A stretch of 46,805 nt of DNA from assembly GCA_029561465.1 (NCBI GenBank), contig JAKQIZ010000006.1:1-46805 (forward strand), given 5' to 3'. Within the stretch, counting starts at the first letter, position 1, and each line of letters begins with the position of its first letter. Origin of the DNA: Deltaproteobacteria bacterium. GTDB lineage: Bacteria > Desulfobacterota > Syntrophia > Syntrophales > UBA8958. Positions 19,677 through 32,300 of this stretch are shown in pieces. The notes under the pieces are model-generated. The model saw nothing but the letters and a program-made list of their open reading frames with translations. It was not told the origin of the DNA and did not search any database. The position numbers were made by a program, and so were the translations under genes.

Positions 19677-19863
19677 GATTGAATATGTTAGTCATTTTAC
19701 AATATTTTCTAAATTAGCGGCGGGAAAGTTTTACCGCGGACTCGGGGGTATGGCGGCGGCCAGGGGTGCTGGAGTCCAAAAAGCAATTCCCGGGTCGGTT
19801 AAACGATAAAAAACGAGCTGAAGACGCAATGCCGTATTACCAGACAACCAGGAGGAGATGTCG

Positions 19864-20193
19864 ATGACGATAGGAGAAGGGGACCTGAGGAGCGACAGGA
19901 TAACCGTCGTAGTAGAAGAAGATTTGCGGGAACTGATTCCGGGATACCTGGAAAATCGCCGCAAGGACATCACGACAATCCGGGAGGCCCTGGCCGGAAG
20001 CGATTACGAGGCGATCCGCTCCCTGGGGCACAAGATGAAGGGCTCCGGCGGCGGCTATGGTTTCGATGCCATCACCGAGTTGGGTCATGACCTCGAAGCG
20101 GCGGCGAAAAGCGAACATACCGAAGAGATTTCCAGGTTGAACGACGCCTTGGCGTCCTATCTGGAACGGCTGGAAGTGGTTTATCAGGATTGA
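19864..20193 (+). CDS. HPt (histidine phosphotransfer) domain protein
   Basis: A 109-aa protein. AGGAGGA favours ATG 19864 over 19858, which lies too close to the site. It is a four-helix HPt domain with the phosphorylatable histidine in SLGHKMKGSGGGYGFDAI, the canonical H-x-[LM]-K-G-S motif. HPt proteins shuttle phosphate between receiver domains. The next gene, 12 bases downstream, carries a complete receiver domain and is the obvious partner. No kinase is adjacent. The preceding ~180-base gap shows no motif I can name. Confidence 0.85.
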   Translation: MTIGEGDLRSDRITVVVEEDLRELIPGYLENRRKDITTIREALAGSDYEAIRSLGHKMKGSGGGYGFDAITELGHDLEAAAKSEHTEEISRLNDALASYLERLEVVYQD

Positions 20194-20205: not shown

Positions 20206-22452
20206 ATGGCTGAGCAAGACGAAAGAATGGAAATCCCGGGAGGCGGAGCGGTGCGAATGGAAGGGACTGCCGTACCCCGGACGCTCCAGGATGGGCGCCT
20301 GTTGCATGCTGATTTCGGAAAGTACAAGAAATGGCTGCGGGAGCGTTTTTCTATGGCCGGGGAAGTTGGAGAAGACTTCCAGAAGACGAAAATATCCGGT
20401 CTTTACACCCTGGCGGCGCCCCTTGGGATCAAGGAAAGCGAACTGGCCCGGACGATCTCCGAATTCCTGAACCTGATGCACCGGAAGACGATGGACTATG
20501 ATGAGTACCTCACCGATCTTTTGCCAATGGAATTCTGCCGTTGGAATTCCGTGGCCCCTATCCTCGACGCCGAGGGCGGCGGCGCCTTCCTGATCAGCAA
20601 TCCCTTTGACTGGGAACTCCTCGACGTCCTCAAGAAAAACACCCCCGCCGATCAGCCCCTGCGCCTCATTGTTGCCGATCCCCTCTACATTCGCTCTCTT
20701 TTGGATCGCAAGAATGACAAGGCGAGGATGCAGGCCGCCCGATCCGTGGGAGAGGTGGACATAGCAAAGGAAGATGAACCCGATGTGGAAATGGCGCCGG
20801 TATCGATGCCGGTGATCGAAGACGTCGGGCCCGTCTCGGCGGCGGATGTGGAAAAACGTCCGGTGGTCCATGTCTCCAACAATATTCTCTACACGGCGGT
20901 TATGGAGCGATCGAGCGACATTCACATCGAGCCGAAGGAGAAGGAGACCGTGGTCCGTTATCGCATCGACGGCGATCTCCGGGATATCTTCCGTCTGAAG
21001 CGGCAGACCGGGGTCATGGTCATCTCGCGCCTCAAGGCCTTGGCGGGTCTGGATATCGCCGAGCGGCTGAAACCCCAGGACGGTGCCGTGGAAATCTTGG
21101 TGGGCAAGCGGACCTTCAAGCTCCGCCTGGCCACGACGTCGACGCCCAGCGGGGAGAGCCTGATCATCCGGATCCTGGAACCTTCGGCCAAACCCAAGGA
21201 TCTGGGCGAGTTGGGGATGACGAAAGAGCAGGTCCGAACGATGATGGACTTAGCCACGCGGCGGTACGGTCTCATCCTCGTCGTGGGACCAACGGGAGCG
21301 GGAAAGACGACGACCATCTACAGCTTTCTCTCCCACGTGGACACCAAGACCCGAAGCCTGATTTCCGTCGAGGATCCGGTGGAATACCGGATCCCCGAGG
21401 CCAACCAGCAGCAGGTTAACGAAAAGGCCGGGGTGACCTTCGACGCCCTCCTGAAATCTTCGGTGCGCCAGGATCCGGACATCCTCTACCTCGGGGAAAT
21501 CCGCGACAACTTTTCCGCCCGAATCTCCGTAGATTTCGCCAGCACCGGCCACATGACCATCTCCACCCTCCATACCAATAACGCCACCACCGCCATCTTT
21601 CGCCTCGAGCGCCTCGGCATCGTCCGGGAAGTCATGGCGGAGGCACTCCTTGGGATAATTGCCCAGCGCCTCCTGAAGCGGCTCTGCCCCCACTGCAAGC
21701 GGGTGGCCCCCATTACGCCGCGGGAGGCGGAAATGCTGCGTCCCTTCACCGATGAGCTTCCCGAATACGTGGCCCACCCCGTCGGCTGTCCGAAATGCCG
21801 GGAGGGATATTTCGGCCGGGAAGGGGTCTATGAGATCATCGCCTTCGATCCGGATTTGCTGGAGCGCATCCGTAACGGAATGGCCATTTCGGAGCTCCGG
21901 GAATTTATTCATCGCCGGGGCGACTATCTCATCAGTCACCATGCCGTCCAAAAGGTGAAGGATCTCATCTTTCCCGTCAAGGACGTTTATGACAAGGTCC
22001 TGGTCGAGGAGATCCAGATGACCCCTAAAGATGAAGAGGTCAAGGTTGAGAAGAAGGAAGACCCAGGGCAAAAAGCTGGGGCCCCGGCAATCCTGGTGGT
22101 GGAGGATGATGAGGACAATCGACTGCTCATCTCCCGGATCCTCTCCGGACAGGGTTACGAGGTGGCCGTGGCCGGCGACGGCATCGACGCCCTGATGGCG
22201 TTGGGGACCAAGGAATTCGACCTTATCCTCTCGGACATCAACATGCCCAACCTGGACGGATTCAAGTTCCTGGAAATCATCAACCAAAAGGGGGTTCGGG
22301 CGCCGCTCATGTTTCTCACAGCCCGGGCGGATGAAGAGGACGAGGTCAAGGGCCTGGAATTAGGGGCTCTGGACTATCTAAAAAAACCGATAAAAAAAGA
22401 TGCCCTGCTGATGCGGGTCAAACGCGCCCTGGGGAGAAGAGAAAGGGCCTGA
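20206..22452 (+). CDS. PilB/GspE-type ATPase fused to a C-terminal receiver domain
   Basis: A 748-aa protein. The N-terminal ~190 residues are a divergent assembly domain. Then comes a secretion ATPase: SDIHIEPKEKETVVRYRIDG, Walker A GPTGAGKTTT near residue 362, the Asp box ISVEDPVEY, a Walker-B-like DILYLGEIRD, the His box STLHTNNA, and a zinc-binding CPHC...CPKC pair near 494 and 527. The last ~120 residues (from ~628) are a full receiver domain: VVEDDEDN acidic pair, phospho-Asp in LILSDINMP, LTARAD threonine, LKKP lysine. The motor should power pseudopilus or pilus assembly, and the receiver should make it respond to phosphorylation. The fusion is unusual. The HPt gene lies just upstream. 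Confidence 0.88.
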   Translation: MAEQDERMEIPGGGAVRMEGTAVPRTLQDGRLLHADFGKYKKWLRERFSMAGEVGEDFQKTKISGLYTLAAPLGIKESELARTISEFLNLMHRKTMDYDEYLTDLLPMEFCRWNSVAPILDAEGGGAFLISNPFDWELLDVLKKNTPADQPLRLIVADPLYIRSLLDRKNDKARMQAARSVGEVDIAKEDEPDVEMAPVSMPVIEDVGPVSAADVEKRPVVHVSNNILYTAVMERSSDIHIEPKEKETVVRYRIDGDLRDIFRLKRQTGVMVISRLKALAGLDIAERLKPQDGAVEILVGKRTFKLRLATTSTPSGESLIIRILEPSAKPKDLGELGMTKEQVRTMMDLATRRYGLILVVGPTGAGKTTTIYSFLSHVDTKTRSLISVEDPVEYRIPEANQQQVNEKAGVTFDALLKSSVRQDPDILYLGEIRDNFSARISVDFASTGHMTISTLHTNNATTAIFRLERLGIVREVMAEALLGIIAQRLLKRLCPHCKRVAPITPREAEMLRPFTDELPEYVAHPVGCPKCREGYFGREGVYEIIAFDPDLLERIRNGMAISELREFIHRRGDYLISHHAVQKVKDLIFPVKDVYDKVLVEEIQMTPKDEEVKVEKKEDPGQKAGAPAILVVEDDEDNRLLISRILSGQGYEVAVAGDGIDALMALGTKEFDLILSDINMPNLDGFKFLEIINQKGVRAPLMFLTARADEEDEVKGLELGALDYLKKPIKKDALLMRVKRALGRRERA

Positions 22453-22557: not shown

Positions 22558-23535
22558 ATGGATATCCGGATGATTGATCAACAAACAACCGGTATCTTTA
22601 TGGGACGGAAAGATAACCGCGTTCCCCCCCGGACAGGTCGTTACTCTCCAGCCATAAAAATACCGTTGAGGTCCCGAGACGACAACCGGGGCTTCACCCT
22701 GATCGAGGTGGTGGTGGCCATGGCCTTGATCATGGTCCTGCTGGCCATAGCCGCCCCGCTGATGAGCGCCTATCTCGAAAGAAGCCGTGGCACGACCTGC
22801 CTATCCATGCGCTATGTCACGGAAAAGGCGGAGATGACCTACATGATCGAGAAGGGCCGGATTAGCGACGGCATCGCCGAGCTCATCAGCGTCGGGCTGC
22901 TGGAGCGGGAGCCACGCTGCCCCAGCGGCGGCACCTATGCCTGGCTGCAGCGGTCTCCGGAACCGATTCTGGGCTGTTCGGTCCATTACGGTTCCGTCCC
23001 GGCGGTTGCGGAGGCCGCGGTTCTTTATGCCAGCGGCTTCAACGATCAGACCGGCTTGACCAGGCTCATGGGGCAATGGAACACCGGCCACGGGACCCTG
23101 AACAACCGTCCCGGGCAGGAAAGCCGCATCGGCTTCGGCAGCACCGCCTGGGCGGACTATGAGATCAGGGTCAATGCCGTCCTTAAAGCGGGGAATGGTT
23201 ACGGCGTGTATTACCGCGCCGACAACAATCCCAACATCACCGGTTATGTCTTCCAGTACGATCCGGGACTGGGCAACAGGTTCGTCGTCCGCAAGGTGGT
23301 GAACGGCGTCGAACAGTCGCCATTTCAAAGCATTGCCATGCCCGCCGGTTTCCCCGTTTACAACCAGTCCCACGACATCAGCATCTCCATCGTGGGCAAC
23401 CGCCATGTCATCAAGGTGGACAACCAGCCCGTACTGGAATTCCAAGACAGTACTTTCGCCGCCGGTTCCGGCGGATTCCGGACCTGGGGCAATTCCGAGG
23501 CCGGCTTCGACAATCTGAACGTGGTGCAGAAATGA
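22558..23535 (+). CDS. Type IV pilin-like (pseudopilin) with a large C-terminal domain
   Basis: The prepilin peptidase site is plain: RGFTLIEVVVAMALIMVLLA, with cleavage after the Gly and Glu at +5. The leader is long and basic; the start is uncertain (ATG 22558, 22570 or 22600, none with a good ribosome site). After the pilin helix and a short pilin body there is a ~170-residue C-terminal beta-rich domain (WADYEIRVNAVLKAGNGYGV, GFRTWGNSEAGFDNLNV) resembling LamG/DUF1080-type concanavalin-like folds. Such domains bind sugars or other surfaces, so the pilin tip could carry an adhesin. It lies 105 bases after the PilB::REC gene. Confidence 0.8.
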   Translation: MDIRMIDQQTTGIFMGRKDNRVPPRTGRYSPAIKIPLRSRDDNRGFTLIEVVVAMALIMVLLAIAAPLMSAYLERSRGTTCLSMRYVTEKAEMTYMIEKGRISDGIAELISVGLLEREPRCPSGGTYAWLQRSPEPILGCSVHYGSVPAVAEAAVLYASGFNDQTGLTRLMGQWNTGHGTLNNRPGQESRIGFGSTAWADYEIRVNAVLKAGNGYGVYYRADNNPNITGYVFQYDPGLGNRFVVRKVVNGVEQSPFQSIAMPAGFPVYNQSHDISISIVGNRHVIKVDNQPVLEFQDSTFAAGSGGFRTWGNSEAGFDNLNVVQK

Positions 23536-25682: not shown

Positions 25683-26852
25683 GTGTTTCAATCCGCGCAT
25701 ACTTTCGTTTTTTGCAGTCCCGCCAAGGTGCTTTCCGGTAACAGGGCCCTGGAAAACCTGCCGGTGGAACTGGCGGGTATGGATGCCTGCCGGCCGCTGA
25801 TCCTCACCACGGCCGGACTGGCGGTCCGGGGGATGGAGCGGATCATGGCCGGGGCGTTCGCCGACTCTCAACTAACCGTCGGCTTTTTTACCGGCGTTCC
25901 CCCTTGCCCCGATCGGGAACTTGTCCGGGCTTTGTACGGGCTGTATCGTGACAGGGGCTACGATTCCCTGATCGCCCTCGGAGGCGGACCGGTACTGACA
26001 GTGGCCAAGGCCCTCAATATCGCCGTATCGGGAGAGCCGGAAGATCTGGAGGCCGCGGCCGCCGGCACGCTGGAGAGCAAAGAGCTGCGGCCCCTGACGG
26101 CGATTCCGAACCTCGATGTTTCCGGCTACGAAATGACCCGTTACGCCGATCTCGCCTCACTGTCCCTAACGGCGCCGACAGCCATTCCCGGGCTGCTCGT
26201 TCTCGACCATCGCACGGTCCCAGCGGAAGACCGTAAAACAACCGCCGCCGCCGCTCTCCTTACCTTGACCCAGGCCGTGGAGGCCCTCCTCCATCCGGGC
26301 CGCAACCACTTGACGGATGCTTACGCCTATGGGGCGGCCAGATTTATCATGGAGAACTTCCGGACGGCCCTGAAGAACCCATCTGAGCGTGGGAGCAGAC
26401 TCGCCTTGGCCAATGCGGCCTTTTTCGCCCAGACGGCCTTCGACAACCTGTCCGGGGGAAAGATCTTTTGCCTCGGTATGGCCATCTCCCGGCGCTGCGC
26501 GGTCAGCCCGGGTCTGGTCATGGGGCTCCTTCTTCCTCATGGACTTCTGATGGAAATGGACCGGGAGGAAACGCCGGGAAAGGACCTTTTCCTCGCAGTG
26601 GGGGGGGCGGAGGATTATGCCCTGGTCGAGGAAGGGATGGGCCTCCGCAAGACGGTGGACCGCTGTGTGGAGCTGCTACTGGAACTTCAGAGCCTCATTC
26701 CCGATTATCCCCGGAGCATCCGGGATATCGGCCTTAAGAAAAGTGATCTGGAAGAACTTCCCGGAGCCGCAGATGAGGTTACCGGCCGGGGAACCCTTGC
26801 CCTGCCCGAGGTCCGTTACCTTCTGGACAAGGCCTGGGAAACGAGATTCTGA
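25683..26852 (+). CDS. Degenerate iron-ADH-family protein (active-site residues lost)
   Basis: A 389-aa protein with GTG 25683 after AGGAGGAGG. It aligns end to end with the intact Fe-alcohol dehydrogenase that follows, but the key positions differ: GGGSxxDxAK is GGGPVLTVAK; TTAGTGSE is NLDVSGYE; the metal-ligand segment DALTHAVEA is LTLTQAVEA; and VHTLGHATG is IFCLGMAIS. All three histidines and the aspartate that hold the metal, and the NAD-site residues, are missing. The sequence is otherwise well kept and open, so it is not decaying. It may be a structural or regulatory subunit of the next enzyme. A dehydrogenase function is unlikely. Confidence 0.8.
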   Translation: MFQSAHTFVFCSPAKVLSGNRALENLPVELAGMDACRPLILTTAGLAVRGMERIMAGAFADSQLTVGFFTGVPPCPDRELVRALYGLYRDRGYDSLIALGGGPVLTVAKALNIAVSGEPEDLEAAAAGTLESKELRPLTAIPNLDVSGYEMTRYADLASLSLTAPTAIPGLLVLDHRTVPAEDRKTTAAAALLTLTQAVEALLHPGRNHLTDAYAYGAARFIMENFRTALKNPSERGSRLALANAAFFAQTAFDNLSGGKIFCLGMAISRRCAVSPGLVMGLLLPHGLLMEMDREETPGKDLFLAVGGAEDYALVEEGMGLRKTVDRCVELLLELQSLIPDYPRSIRDIGLKKSDLEELPGAADEVTGRGTLALPEVRYLLDKAWETRF

Positions 26853-26927
26853 CCGGCGGGATGACCTGTTGCGGCGGACATCCCGGCCGGGGGAGCGAGA
26901 GGAAGACGGATCGAGGAGAGCAAAGAG

Positions 26928-28175
26928 ATGTACCTACCTGGATATTATGAATATTCCTGCCGGGTGAAGATCGTCGCGGGGCATGACGCCCTGGAGGGGA
27001 TCCCCGCCCTGCTTCGCCACGTCGGCGCCCGCCGGCCTCTGCTGGTTACCGACAAGGGAGTCGCCGGAGCGGGGCTCGTGGATATTGTCCGGCAGGCGAT
27101 AGGAGATCGACTGGAGATCGGTGCCGTCGCCGATGATGTTCCCCCCGATTCCGATCTCAAGGTGGTGCACCGCCTGTCCGCCCTTTACCGGGAAAACGGC
27201 TGCGACGCCATGATCGCGGTGGGCGGAGGTTCCGTGATGGATACGGCCAAGGGGATCAATATCGTGGTTTCCGAGCGGGCGGAAGATCTCATGAAATTCA
27301 GCGGGTCGGGAGCGCTGAAGCGGCCCCTGAAGCCCCTAATTGCCGTGCCGACCACGGCGGGCACCGGTTCCGAGGTCACCCTGGTTGCCGTAATCAAGGA
27401 TCACGAGCGGCATCTGAAGATGGCGTTCGTGAGTTTCTTCCTCCTTCCCGACGCGGCCATTCTCGATTCCCGCATGACCCTGAGTCTGCCTGCCCCGATC
27501 ACGGCGTCTACCGGGATGGATGCCCTGACCCACGCCGTGGAGGCCTACTACTGTCTGAGTAAGAATCCCCTGAGTGATGTAACCGCCCTGGCGGCCATCC
27601 GGCTCATCAGTGGAAATCTCCTCAAGGTCGTCCGGAAGCCGTCAGATCGGGAAGGGCGCCTGGCTATGGCCAACGCCGCCACCCTGGCGGGCATGGCCTT
27701 TTCCAATTCCATGGTGGGGATGGTGCATACCCTGGGGCATGCCACTGGTTCCGTCTGCGGGGTCCCCCACGGGGTGTGCATGGCCATCCTGCTTCCCTAC
27801 GGTCTGGAATACAACCGCCATAAGCGGGAGGTTGTCATGGGGGAGCTTCTTTTCCCCATCGGCGGTCCCGGCATTTACGGGCAAACCGCTCCAGAGGACC
27901 GAACAAACCGGGTTATCGCCTATGTCCGCCAGCTCAACGAAGACCTCCACGAGATGACGGGAGGACGGCATGCCCGTTTTCTCGGCGAGGTCATTGACCG
28001 GGAGGGAAATCCCGCGGTGCCCCGGGAGCGGCTTCCGGACATTGCCCGCACGGCCCTGGGTGACGGCTCCATCTTCTACAATCCGGAAGATCTGGACTAT
28101 GACGATCTGCTCATGGTCCTGGAGGCGGCCTGGGAAGGGATGCCCCTGGATTCGGGAAGGATCCGGAAGGGATGA
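26928..28175 (+). CDS. Iron-containing alcohol dehydrogenase
   Basis: A 415-aa protein from ATG 26928 with GAGGAG eight bases upstream. It is a complete group III dehydrogenase: the nucleotide-binding GGGSVMDTAKG near residue 99, VPTTAGTGSEVT, and metal ligands in GMDALTHAVEAY and HTLGHATG...VPHG. It should reduce an aldehyde to the alcohol (or the reverse) with NAD(P)H and Fe2+. It sits between its degenerate paralogue and the AOR gene (19 bases away), so it probably handles the aldehyde made by AOR. Confidence 0.93.
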   Translation: MYLPGYYEYSCRVKIVAGHDALEGIPALLRHVGARRPLLVTDKGVAGAGLVDIVRQAIGDRLEIGAVADDVPPDSDLKVVHRLSALYRENGCDAMIAVGGGSVMDTAKGINIVVSERAEDLMKFSGSGALKRPLKPLIAVPTTAGTGSEVTLVAVIKDHERHLKMAFVSFFLLPDAAILDSRMTLSLPAPITASTGMDALTHAVEAYYCLSKNPLSDVTALAAIRLISGNLLKVVRKPSDREGRLAMANAATLAGMAFSNSMVGMVHTLGHATGSVCGVPHGVCMAILLPYGLEYNRHKREVVMGELLFPIGGPGIYGQTAPEDRTNRVIAYVRQLNEDLHEMTGGRHARFLGEVIDREGNPAVPRERLPDIARTALGDGSIFYNPEDLDYDDLLMVLEAAWEGMPLDSGRIRKG

Positions 28176-28194: not shown

Positions 28195-30123
28195 ATGAGC
28201 GGCGGTTATCTGGGACGGATCCTGTGGGTGGACCTTGTTGCCGGCGCCTGTCGCGAGGAAGAAGTCGCCGATGAGATCTACGGGCAATTCCTCTCGGGAA
28301 TCGGCCTGGCGGTCCGGCTTCTTGGCGACCGCATTCCTCCCGGAGCCGATCCTCTGGGGCCGGAGAATGTCCTCGCGTTCGTTTCCGGACTCCTCACCGG
28401 CACGGGCGCGCTCTTCAGCGGCCGCTGGATGGTCGCAGGGAAATCACCCCTGACCGGCGGCTGGGGGGATGCCAATTGCGGCGGCACCCTGTCTCCGGCC
28501 ATAAAACGTTGCGGCTACGACGGGATCTTTTTCACCGGCGTCAGCCCCCGTCCGGTCTATCTCCTTGTCGATGACGGCCGCCCGGAGTTGCGGGACGCTT
28601 CCCATCTGTGGGGAAAGGACGCGCTCGCGGCGGAGGAGGAATTGATCCGGGAAGCGGGGGGGCATGCCCGGGCGGCCGTCATCGGCCCGGCCGGGGAGAA
28701 GCTTTCCCTCATCGCGGGGATCTGCAATGACCGGGGCCGCATCGCCGCCCGTTCCGGGCTGGGGGCCGTCATGGGCGCCAAGCGCCTCAAGGGCCTGGTC
28801 CTCAAGGGCAAACGGCGCATTCCCGTCCATCACCGGGAAGAGGTCCAGCGTCTGAGCAGGGAGTGCAACAAGTGGGTGCAGTTTCAGCCGCCCTTCGTTA
28901 CCGGAACGATGACGGCCTACGTGGGGACCCTGATGCGCCTCCTGCCCACCCAGATGGCCATGGACGGACTGGTTTACAAACTCCTCCTGAAGAAATGGGG
29001 GACGGTGAGCATGAACCAGATGTCCGTGGAGATGGGCGACGCCCCGATCATGAACTGGAAGGGGACAAGCGCGGACTGGGGGATCGGTAAATCACGGACC
29101 GTCAATCCCGACGCCTTCCGGGTCCTGGAAAGGGTAAAGTACCACTGCTACTCCTGTCCGTTGGGCTGCGGCGGCATTTGTGCCACCAAGGGGCCTTTCG
29201 GAGAGGTCCACAAGCCGGAGTATGAATCCGTCCTGGCCTTGGGGGGGCTCTGTATGAACAGTGACCTGGAGAGCATCATCACCATGAACGAATTGCTCAA
29301 CCGGGCGGGGATGGACACCATCTCGGCGGGGGGGACGGTGGCCTTCGCCATGGAGTGTTACGAACAGGGGATCCTGAGCCGGGATGATCTGGACGGCCTG
29401 GACCTGCGGTGGGGCAACTCCGCCGCCATGATCGCCCTGATCGAAAAGATGATCCGCCGGGAGGGGGTGGGCGATTTGCTGGCGGACGGCGCCAAAAGGG
29501 CGGCGGAAAAGATCGGCCGGGGCGCCGGGGCATGCGCCATCCACGCCGGGGGGCAGGAGTTGCCCATGCATGACGGCCGCAACGATCCCGGTTTCAACGT
29601 CCATTACTCCGTGGAGGCCACGCCGGGCCGTCACACCATCGGGGCGCAGCTCTACTACGAGATGTTCCGGCTCTGGAAGCGGATACCCTCCCTGCCGCGG
29701 CCGCCGCTGTTTTACCGCAAGCGGCGCAAATACCTGGCCGATGAGGAAAAGGCCGTCATGGCCGCGGCGTGCAGCAAGTTCATGAACGTGGCCAATGGCG
29801 CTGGTCTTTGCATGTTCGGGCTCTTTCTGGGGGCGGAGCGGATTCCGTCCTTTGCGTGGCTCAATGCCGCGGCGGGATGGCGGAAGAGCCCCGAGGAGTA
29901 CCTGGCCATCGGGGCGGCCATCCAGAACCGGAAGCAGGAATTCAATCGTCGGCAGGGTATCGATGCCCGTTCCTTGCAGGTTCCCGACCGGGTGCTCGGT
30001 CGACCTCCCCAGAGACGGGGGGCCAACCGGGGCCGGACCATGGATCTGGAAAAGATGCGGAGCGATTATTGGGAGCAGTTCGGCTGGGATCGGGAAAAGG
30101 GGCTGCCCAAAGACAGGCCGTAG
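28195..30123 (+). CDS. Aldehyde:ferredoxin oxidoreductase (tungsten type)
   Basis: A 642-aa protein; the true start is ATG 28195, 75 codons inside the track ORF. The N-terminal domain opens GGYLGRILWVDL; the Fe-S ligands are CYSCPLGCGGIC (C-x2-C-x3-C) near residue 320; the C-terminal cysteine is in NGAGLCMFGLF. The family binds a W-bispterin and one [4Fe-4S] cluster and interconverts carboxylic acids and aldehydes with ferredoxin. The GRWMVAGKSPLTGGWGDAN segment is family-typical. The next gene is a multi-cluster ferredoxin, its probable electron partner. The substrate is not predictable. Confidence 0.92.
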   Translation: MSGGYLGRILWVDLVAGACREEEVADEIYGQFLSGIGLAVRLLGDRIPPGADPLGPENVLAFVSGLLTGTGALFSGRWMVAGKSPLTGGWGDANCGGTLSPAIKRCGYDGIFFTGVSPRPVYLLVDDGRPELRDASHLWGKDALAAEEELIREAGGHARAAVIGPAGEKLSLIAGICNDRGRIAARSGLGAVMGAKRLKGLVLKGKRRIPVHHREEVQRLSRECNKWVQFQPPFVTGTMTAYVGTLMRLLPTQMAMDGLVYKLLLKKWGTVSMNQMSVEMGDAPIMNWKGTSADWGIGKSRTVNPDAFRVLERVKYHCYSCPLGCGGICATKGPFGEVHKPEYESVLALGGLCMNSDLESIITMNELLNRAGMDTISAGGTVAFAMECYEQGILSRDDLDGLDLRWGNSAAMIALIEKMIRREGVGDLLADGAKRAAEKIGRGAGACAIHAGGQELPMHDGRNDPGFNVHYSVEATPGRHTIGAQLYYEMFRLWKRIPSLPRPPLFYRKRRKYLADEEKAVMAAACSKFMNVANGAGLCMFGLFLGAERIPSFAWLNAAAGWRKSPEEYLAIGAAIQNRKQEFNRRQGIDARSLQVPDRVLGRPPQRRGANRGRTMDLEKMRSDYWEQFGWDREKGLPKDRP

Positions 30124-30148: not shown

Positions 30149-30595
30149 ATGTCCTATCACATATTGGCAAATTGCAGCGGTTGCGGGGCCTGTGCCCGTA
30201 TTTGCCCCACGGAGGCCATTGCCGGGGAAAAGAAGTCTCTCCATGTCATCGATCCCCGCCGGTGCCTCGAGTGCGGGGCCTGTGGAAAGATCTGCCCGGT
30301 GGCGGCGGTGCGGGATGCCTTCGGCATCGTCTGCCGCCGCGTCAAGCGTTCCGCCTGGGAAAAGCCCCGGTTGGACGAGAAGCTCTGCATGTCCTGCGGC
30401 ATCTGTATCGACGCCTGCCCGGCGAACTGTCTGGACTGGTCGGAGCCGGTAATGAAGAAGGAACCGCATGCCTATCCCCTGCTCAGAGAGGAAAAGCTTT
30501 GCATAGGTTGCGGCTTCTGCGCCCGGGAATGCCCCGTCGGGGCCATCGCGATGACCGCGCCGACGACGGTGTCGGAAAGGGGTGTAGATGATTAG
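30149..30595 (+). CDS. Polyferredoxin with four [4Fe-4S] motifs
   Basis: A 148-aa protein from ATG 30149 with four C-x2-C-x2-C-x3-C-P motifs: CSGCGACARICP, CLECGACGKICP, CMSCGICIDACP and CIGCGFCARECP. It lacks any catalytic domain and should carry electrons for AOR. It starts 25 bases after the AOR stop. No other frame in the area is credible. Confidence 0.92.
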   Translation: MSYHILANCSGCGACARICPTEAIAGEKKSLHVIDPRRCLECGACGKICPVAAVRDAFGIVCRRVKRSAWEKPRLDEKLCMSCGICIDACPANCLDWSEPVMKKEPHAYPLLREEKLCIGCGFCARECPVGAIAMTAPTTVSERGVDD

Positions 30596-30782: not shown

Positions 30783-32300
30783 ATGGGAAATATGACCGCA
30801 GGGGGGAAGACAATCCGGGTTGGTGTCATGGCGGGACGCCGGGAACTCCGCGGATGTTTTCATGGGAGCTTTCGGACCCCCGCCGGAGAAATTCTGACCG
30901 GCCCCTTTGTCCTGACCTCCGGGCCGCCCTCTCCCCATGCCGACGGTGATTCCCCCCCTTCCTCCGGCGCTGGCGACGAAGGCACCGGTCTCTGGCTGCA
31001 AACCCAAACTTGCCGCCTTTTTCTACCGCCGGAGGAGTGCCGCTTTCATTCCGGGGAACGGGCCGACTTTTCCCTGGATGCCGTAACCATCGGGGTGAAC
31101 TTTCACTGGGAACGGCGGGAGCGACAGACATTTCAGGGAAGCTTGGTAGCTTTGGCTGAGCCCGACGGCCTCCTCACCGCCATCAACGAGATCGATATCG
31201 AGGACTATCTGGCCAGCGTCATCTCCTCGGAGATGGCCGCCACGGCGCCGGTGGAGTTCCTCAAGGCCCACGCCGTCATGTCCCGGAGCTGGCTTTTGGC
31301 CATGCTGGAGAGGAAAAACCTTGAGAACGCCGGCGCTGGTTGTGGCCGGACACGTTCTGTCGGGTGCGTTGTCCGGAACTCCGCCGGCGGAGAAACGGGC
31401 GGAATGGACGGTGACGTGGCTGCGGCGCGGGGAGGGGAGTCCAAAAGAGTGAATAGCGATCACGATGGGGACATCCCGGAAGAAATCGTCAAATGGTACG
31501 GACGGGAGGAACACACCCGTTTCGATGTCTGCGCCGACGACCACTGCCAGCGCTACCAGGGGGTGACGAAGATCGTCTCCCCGCGGGTCCGGGAGGCCAT
31601 CGACACCACCCGGGGCATGGTCCTGGTGTATGGCGGCCGGATCTGCGACGCCCGGTATCACAAGGCCTGCGGCGGCCGGACGGAAGACTTTGCCAATGTC
31701 TGGGAGGAACGGTCCGTTCCCTATCTGACGTCCATTGCCGACGGTCCGGAGGATTTTCCCTCCCTGGCCACGGAAGCGGCGGCCGCGGACTGGATCTCAT
31801 CGTCGCCGGCCGTCTACTGCAATACCGGCGATATGACCGCACTGCGCCGGATCCTGCCCGCCTTCGATCAGGAAACGCCGGATTTTTTCCGTTGGGAGGT
31901 TGCCTATAAACGGCGGGAATTGGAGGAACTGCTGACAGAGAGATCGGGAATCGATTTTGGGGAACTGCTGCGCCTGAATCCCCTGAGCCGCGGTCCCTCG
32001 GGCCGGATCATCCGCCTGGAGATCGCCGGCACCCGCCACACCGTCATTGTGGGCAAAGAGTTGGAAATCCGCCGCTGGCTATCCCCCAGTCATCTCTACA
32101 GCAGTGCCTTTGTGGTTGCCGCGGAGAAGGACACCCGGGGTAAGATCCGGCGTTTCGTCCTCCGGGGGGCCGGATGGGGTCACGGTGTGGGGCTCTGTCA
32201 GATCGGCGCGGCGATGATGGCCATCCGGGGCTTTTCCATGGAGACCATCCTCGGTCACTATTTTCCCGGCGCCGTGCTTCGGATAAATAGTGACCGGTAA
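30783..32300 (+). CDS. SpoIID/LytB-domain protein
   Basis: A 505-aa protein with ATG 30783 (or 30792). The SpoIID core appears in order: EIDIEDYLASVISSEMAATAP, VEFLKAHAVMSRSWLLAM, DTTRGMVLVYGGRICDARYHKACGGRT (quoted in part: ARYHKACGGRTEDFANVW) and the end GAGWGHGVGLCQIGA. SpoIID proteins are lytic transglycosylases that cut denuded glycan strands. Between about residues 178 and 235 is a low-complexity Gly/Arg/Asp-rich insert. No signal peptide or membrane helix is evident, which is odd for a wall enzyme; export may use another route or a missed start. Confidence 0.85.
   Translation: MGNMTAGGKTIRVGVMAGRRELRGCFHGSFRTPAGEILTGPFVLTSGPPSPHADGDSPPSSGAGDEGTGLWLQTQTCRLFLPPEECRFHSGERADFSLDAVTIGVNFHWERRERQTFQGSLVALAEPDGLLTAINEIDIEDYLASVISSEMAATAPVEFLKAHAVMSRSWLLAMLERKNLENAGAGCGRTRSVGCVVRNSAGGETGGMDGDVAAARGGESKRVNSDHDGDIPEEIVKWYGREEHTRFDVCADDHCQRYQGVTKIVSPRVREAIDTTRGMVLVYGGRICDARYHKACGGRTEDFANVWEERSVPYLTSIADGPEDFPSLATEAAAADWISSSPAVYCNTGDMTALRRILPAFDQETPDFFRWEVAYKRRELEELLTERSGIDFGELLRLNPLSRGPSGRIIRLEIAGTRHTVIVGKELEIRRWLSPSHLYSSAFVVAAEKDTRGKIRRFVLRGAGWGHGVGLCQIGAAMMAIRGFSMETILGHYFPGAVLRINSDR

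Follow-up and report, generated by a model that had tools for sequence, protein, structure and literature searches.

Two alcohol dehydrogenases of the Fe-ADH family lie side by side in the 46,805-nucleotide stretch of a Deltaproteobacteria contig analysed here (the window), and the locus raises the question of why the first, ADH-A, should be kept at full length when it has lost the metal site that its neighbor, ADH-B, still carries. The initial annotation had described two adjacent Fe-ADH paralogues, the first of them full length and in operon with an aldehyde oxidoreductase (AOR), and both points are borne out, as each reading frame matches PF00465 and PF25137 and the AOR gene follows directly downstream of ADH-B in the same orientation (Table 1). 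ADH-A scores 69.7 bits against PF00465 and 50.3 bits against PF25137 (cut-offs 31.3 and 27), and the two families are also matched by all 31 members of alignment A1. The two paralogues are 34% identical across 311 residues and share one reading frame in the window, with two TGA codons between them; ADH-A starts at a GTG preceded by the Shine-Dalgarno sequence AAGGAGGAGG, a strong ribosome-binding site. Two further genes, absent from the initial annotation, belong to the same operon: one for an SCP2-like protein, 11 bases upstream of ADH-A, and one for a polyferredoxin, giving a five-gene set in the order SCP2-like, A, B, AOR, ferredoxin. The operon holds no gene for the FAD subunit AorC, the next gene encoding a SpoIID-domain protein (30783-32300).

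Table 1. Genes of the five-gene set, with positions in the window
Product	Position	Strand	Basis of assignment
SCP2-like lipid-carrier protein P3, ~182 aa	25123..25671	+	AlphaFold model and Foldseek; no Pfam match of its own
ADH-A, metal-less, NAD-site-deficient Fe-ADH paralogue (pseudoenzyme), 389 aa	25683..26852	+	Pfam, residue alignment
ADH-B, Fe-ADH with ligands D198, H202, H267, H281 and catalytic H271 intact, 415 aa	26928..28175	+	
AOR, AFOR-family tungsten-type aldehyde oxidoreductase, AorB-like catalytic subunit	28195..30123	+	PF02730 and PF01314
Polyferredoxin, AorA-like, four [4Fe-4S] motifs	30149..30595	+	Four Fer4 stretches

Elsewhere in the window, a type II/IV secretion-type ATPase with MshEN and T2SSE domains (20206-22452) ends in a response-regulator receiver domain, and a small Hpt protein (19858-20193) is encoded immediately before it, so that this looks like a pilus or secretion motor wired to a phosphorelay. 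Another, pilin-like protein (22558-23535) combines a methylation motif at its N-terminus with a large C-terminal domain that weakly resembles 3-keto-disaccharide hydrolase, below the Pfam cut-off.

The loss of every metal ligand from ADH-A, as originally proposed, is seen directly in the alignment, where the Asp-His-His-His set of ADH-B is replaced by L193, Q197, F262 and P276 and the catalytic His by M266. The accompanying claim that the NAD-binding motifs are lost holds in part: ADH-A lacks the motif Asp (T106), the ribose Asp (T43), T144 and S149, and the whole hairpin bearing the NAD-contact Lys (K164 in ADH-B) is deleted, but the GGG loop, K109, G148 and E150 are retained. ADH-B has the metal ligands, the catalytic His and the NAD motifs. 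The same pattern extends to the homologues, as complete B sequences read DHHHH at the positions of D198, H202, H267, H271 and H281, save one that reads DHHQH, whereas A sequences read LQFMP, MQYMP, ARHQP, IHHWH and others. The Asp ligand and the catalytic His occur in none of the A sequences, and the Lys hairpin is missing from 49 of 49. The IHHWH family, which retains three His and may still bind metal, indicates that the metal was lost stepwise, and the genus of the window stands at the far end of this series with all ligands gone. Single-copy ADHs share 87 invariant columns, of which 33 survive in B only (the metal and cofactor sites among these), 20 in both and two in A only (E29 and P343). 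Taken together, the varied patterns, the hairpin loss and the column retention suggest that loss in A started early and proceeded in steps.

Within the wider Fe-ADH superfamily, catalysis without metal, with another metal or by other chemistry is said to occur in some members, and ADH-A could in principle still be an enzyme of such a kind. Its intact fold, the GGG loop, K109 and E150 present in nearly all A sequences and the three His of some would suit this reading, which is nevertheless improbable, as the NAD Lys hairpin, the ribose Asp, the conserved Thr and Ser and the position of the catalytic His were lost together. In addition, L171 is the sole conserved residue specific to A, and comparing columns among A, B and single-copy ADHs revealed no new polar cluster; the residues thus give no support to a metal-independent enzyme.

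The sample used to follow the pair comprised 155 genomes of the order, which is the entire class in the data set, and on our reading of the searches A-type genes occur in approximately 50 of them. By protein search, orthologues at 61–81% identity are present in six of the seven other genomes of the genus (the contig of the seventh stops within B) and others, more divergent, elsewhere in the order, with full-length frames in most species. ADH-A is therefore not an oddity of one strain; restriction to a single strain, with neutral evolution, was what the initial annotation had named as counting against a functional partner. A single weak A match from Oscillospiraceae (L057) in the contig scan was judged spurious. 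ADH-B is found on the contig of A, adjacent or one gene off, in nearly all genomes with A, and in the rest both genes meet contig ends; among the 155 genomes, each complete locus that contains A contains B as well, and each with a pair-type B also contains A. The five-gene set recurs across the order in the same or a shuffled gene order, the polyferredoxin being conserved next to AOR. Elsewhere in the phylum, modules mostly contain a lone intact ADH, and a dead and intact pair is also found in one genome that lies outside the order (G285). Some irregular loci were seen as well. Four genomes (L131, L132, L133 and L134) have a second, more divergent dead/intact pair, A2/B2, beside a distant AOR, and such a pair is also present in a genome outside the order. 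In one genome (G006; L063 4357-7972) A has an in-frame TAG and AOR is split, from assembly error or local decay, and in another (G029; L087 4456-6159) the B-type frame is 567 aa in place of the usual 415, through either an additional domain or a stop codon that was missed.

Phylogenetic analysis of 87 sequences places A (together with the divergent A2 and A3) and B (together with B2) in sister clades, supported by SH-aLRT values of 99 and 98, respectively, and both are nested among the single-copy ADHs of the SCP2-ADH-AOR module. This topology points to a single ancient duplication, although details inside the A clade are unsure due to its long branches. Across 29 loci the distances of A and B correlate (r 0.73), the rate of change in A being approximately 2.8 times that in B. 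Estimates of dN/dS within the genus are 0.19–0.27 for A and 0.09–0.24 for B, compared to 0.10–0.18 for the SCP2-like gene and 0.10–0.21 for AOR, so that purifying selection on A is clear, if somewhat weaker than on B, and neutral evolution does not describe the gene.

The faster rate of A and the internal TAG in G006 are what one would expect of a duplicate decaying without function; with dN/dS near 0.2, frames full-length in most species, a strong ribosome-binding site and one old origin, this is very improbable, and pseudogene decay was rejected on the selection and conservation data. Being kept beside an active twin in approximately 50 species, A has probably been retained as a non-catalytic subunit of a complex that would process lipid alcohols, and is unlikely to be a broken gene. 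The selection for a non-catalytic partner that had been proposed from the window is well supported by this breadth, the pairing with B, the dN/dS and the core losses shared among A sequences.

The pairing of A with B was approached by predicting the structure of an A-linker-B chain in which the two TGA codons are read through. The input consisted of 17 fused rows together with single rows, A-only rows being left out as MAFFT aligned most of them to the B half. The AlphaFold model reached a pLDDT of 85.8 and a pTM of 0.89, the linker being disordered (pLDDT below 50), and it matches Fe-ADH structures such as FucO (1rrm; TM by target 0.91). A pTM of 0.89 should be unreachable for equal halves that lack a defined mutual position, and a defined arrangement of A and B is thus predicted. 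As the two are paralogous, this co-fold may simply repeat the homodimer geometry of the family, whose known members dimerize via the N-terminal strands β1 and β2 (PMC6616044). The ratio of conservation in A to that in B has a median of 0.56, and values above 1.2 are confined to the vicinity of A residues 22-42 and 54-72, which lie in the N-terminal lobe close to these dimer strands. A natural fusion exists in a single assembly (G123; L130 4943-7021, minus strand), where A residues ~1-267 and a complete B form one frame of 692 aa; its A part contains the N-terminal dimer strands and lacks the C-terminal portion. With only the two A-retained columns noted above, complementary retention in A is weak. 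The heterodimer suggested in the initial annotation, with its structure prediction as one of the proposed checks, is thus backed by a confidently modeled two-subunit unit and one natural fusion, and has the standing of a prediction.

Alternatively, A could work without binding B, for example by sensing a ligand as a homodimer or by providing a docking site for the SCP2-like protein or AOR. Its gene shares an operon with those for SCP2 and AOR in nearly all cases, and the four genomes with the second pair have the order A2-SCP2-B2 and not A-B, both of which would suit such a role. The natural fusion and the confident co-fold oppose it, and single-ADH modules with SCP2 and AOR dispense with A altogether, making independent action of A an unlikely explanation.

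The remaining proteins of the module give some indication of its chemistry. The AlphaFold model of P3 (pLDDT 81) has UbiJ-SCP2 and sterol carrier proteins as its best Foldseek matches (E 1e-4, probability 1.00), although a TM by target of ~0.5–0.6 makes the likeness moderate. The Pfam SCP2 profile gave no match for P3 (0 families) and one among 41 relatives, at E 0.009. The SCP2-like family is present in 58 of the 155 genomes, nearly all of which have the ADH module. Two genomes from other parts of the phylum encode an AOR whose C-terminus carries an SCP2-like domain (L138 1614-4778 and L140 2705-5182), a fusion that physically links the two proteins there. The AOR itself scores 231.7 bits against AFOR_N (PF02730) and 304.6 bits against AFOR_C (PF01314), and its best PDB match is 1aor, with 8c0z also found. 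AOR enzymes oxidize aldehydes and, with ADH, also take acids to alcohols (PMC12096430); for the present module, alcohol oxidation and acid reduction both fit the sequence. A hydrophobic, lipid substrate is tentatively suggested by the SCP2 fold of P3.

The joint reading favored here, at a probability of about 0.62, is that ADH-A serves ADH-B as a non-catalytic subunit of ancient origin, within a module interconverting the alcohol, aldehyde and acid forms of a hydrophobic compound. The single-copy ADH of the SCP2-ADH-AOR module would have duplicated, with copy B retaining metal, cofactor and catalysis and copy A retaining the fold and the N-terminal lobe near the dimer strands while losing its active site. 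The two would most likely heterodimerize through the usual β1/β2 interface of the family, the A half of the predicted dimer serving as a scaffold, an allosteric activator or a docking surface, and on the best reading A would be obligate for B in the manner of a prozyme. For B, the gain could lie in activation, in stability, in the docking of AOR or of the SCP2-like carrier, or in gating of the aldehyde. The SCP2-like protein would present the lipid substrate, B would carry out the alcohol/aldehyde step with NAD(H), and AOR with the polyferredoxin the aldehyde/acid step with low-potential electrons. Control or channeling by A of the aldehyde from AOR, as initially proposed, is compatible with the operon linkage and the SCP2-like carrier. 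A further, doubtful extension would be a soluble lipid-alcohol metabolon of SCP2-like carrier, ADH-A/ADH-B heterodimer, AOR and polyferredoxin in which the dead ADH both docks and gates, handing a long-chain aldehyde between ADH and the tungsten enzyme.

In comparing the module to known systems, A and B share fold and domain order with the Fe-ADH family (FucO, DhaT and Z. mobilis ADH2; PF00465/PF25137), of which B has all metal and catalytic residues whereas A lacks the four ligands, the catalytic His and the NAD hairpin. Unlike the proposed A-B pair, the characterized members compared are homo-oligomers of one active chain. A parallel is offered by trypanosomes, where a dead paralogue is likewise kept with an active one: the AdoMetDC prozyme (PMC5201418) and a dead deoxyhypusine synthase paralogue (PMC3663545) activate their partners through a heteromer. 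Fold and organisms differ, and activation, which is known there, would apply to A and B by analogy only. In the AorAB(C) tungsten aldehyde oxidoreductases (PMC10413684, PMC12096430), an AFOR catalytic subunit and a polyferredoxin with four [4Fe-4S] clusters share one operon as they do here, but in place of the AorC FAD subunit the neighbors are the SCP2-like protein and the ADH pair. P3 has the fold of the UbiJ/SCP2 lipid carriers by structure comparison; its Pfam SCP2 match is not significant and its context is ADH-AOR, not quinone synthesis. The acid-to-alcohol pathway of AOR and ADH in clostridia and archaea (PMC12096430) uses the same reaction pair, but no dead ADH paralogue is described for it. 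The literature searched, with incomplete coverage, contained no report of a dead-paralogue pair in the Fe-ADH family or of the SCP2-ADH-AOR module. Pseudoenzyme partners are known as a class, and their occurrence in the Fe-ADH family and in this module appears to be new.

Dozens of A genes are automatically annotated as alcohol dehydrogenases, an annotation that would be corrected by these results. To our knowledge, few pseudoenzyme partners have been characterized in detail, the trypanosome prozymes among them. The present pair offers a bacterial case with one old duplication, approximately 50 living descendants, an intact single-copy outgroup and a simple two-gene test. If the proposed role is true, it would connect tungsten AOR with a lipid-alcohol module of anaerobes that has so far gone undescribed.
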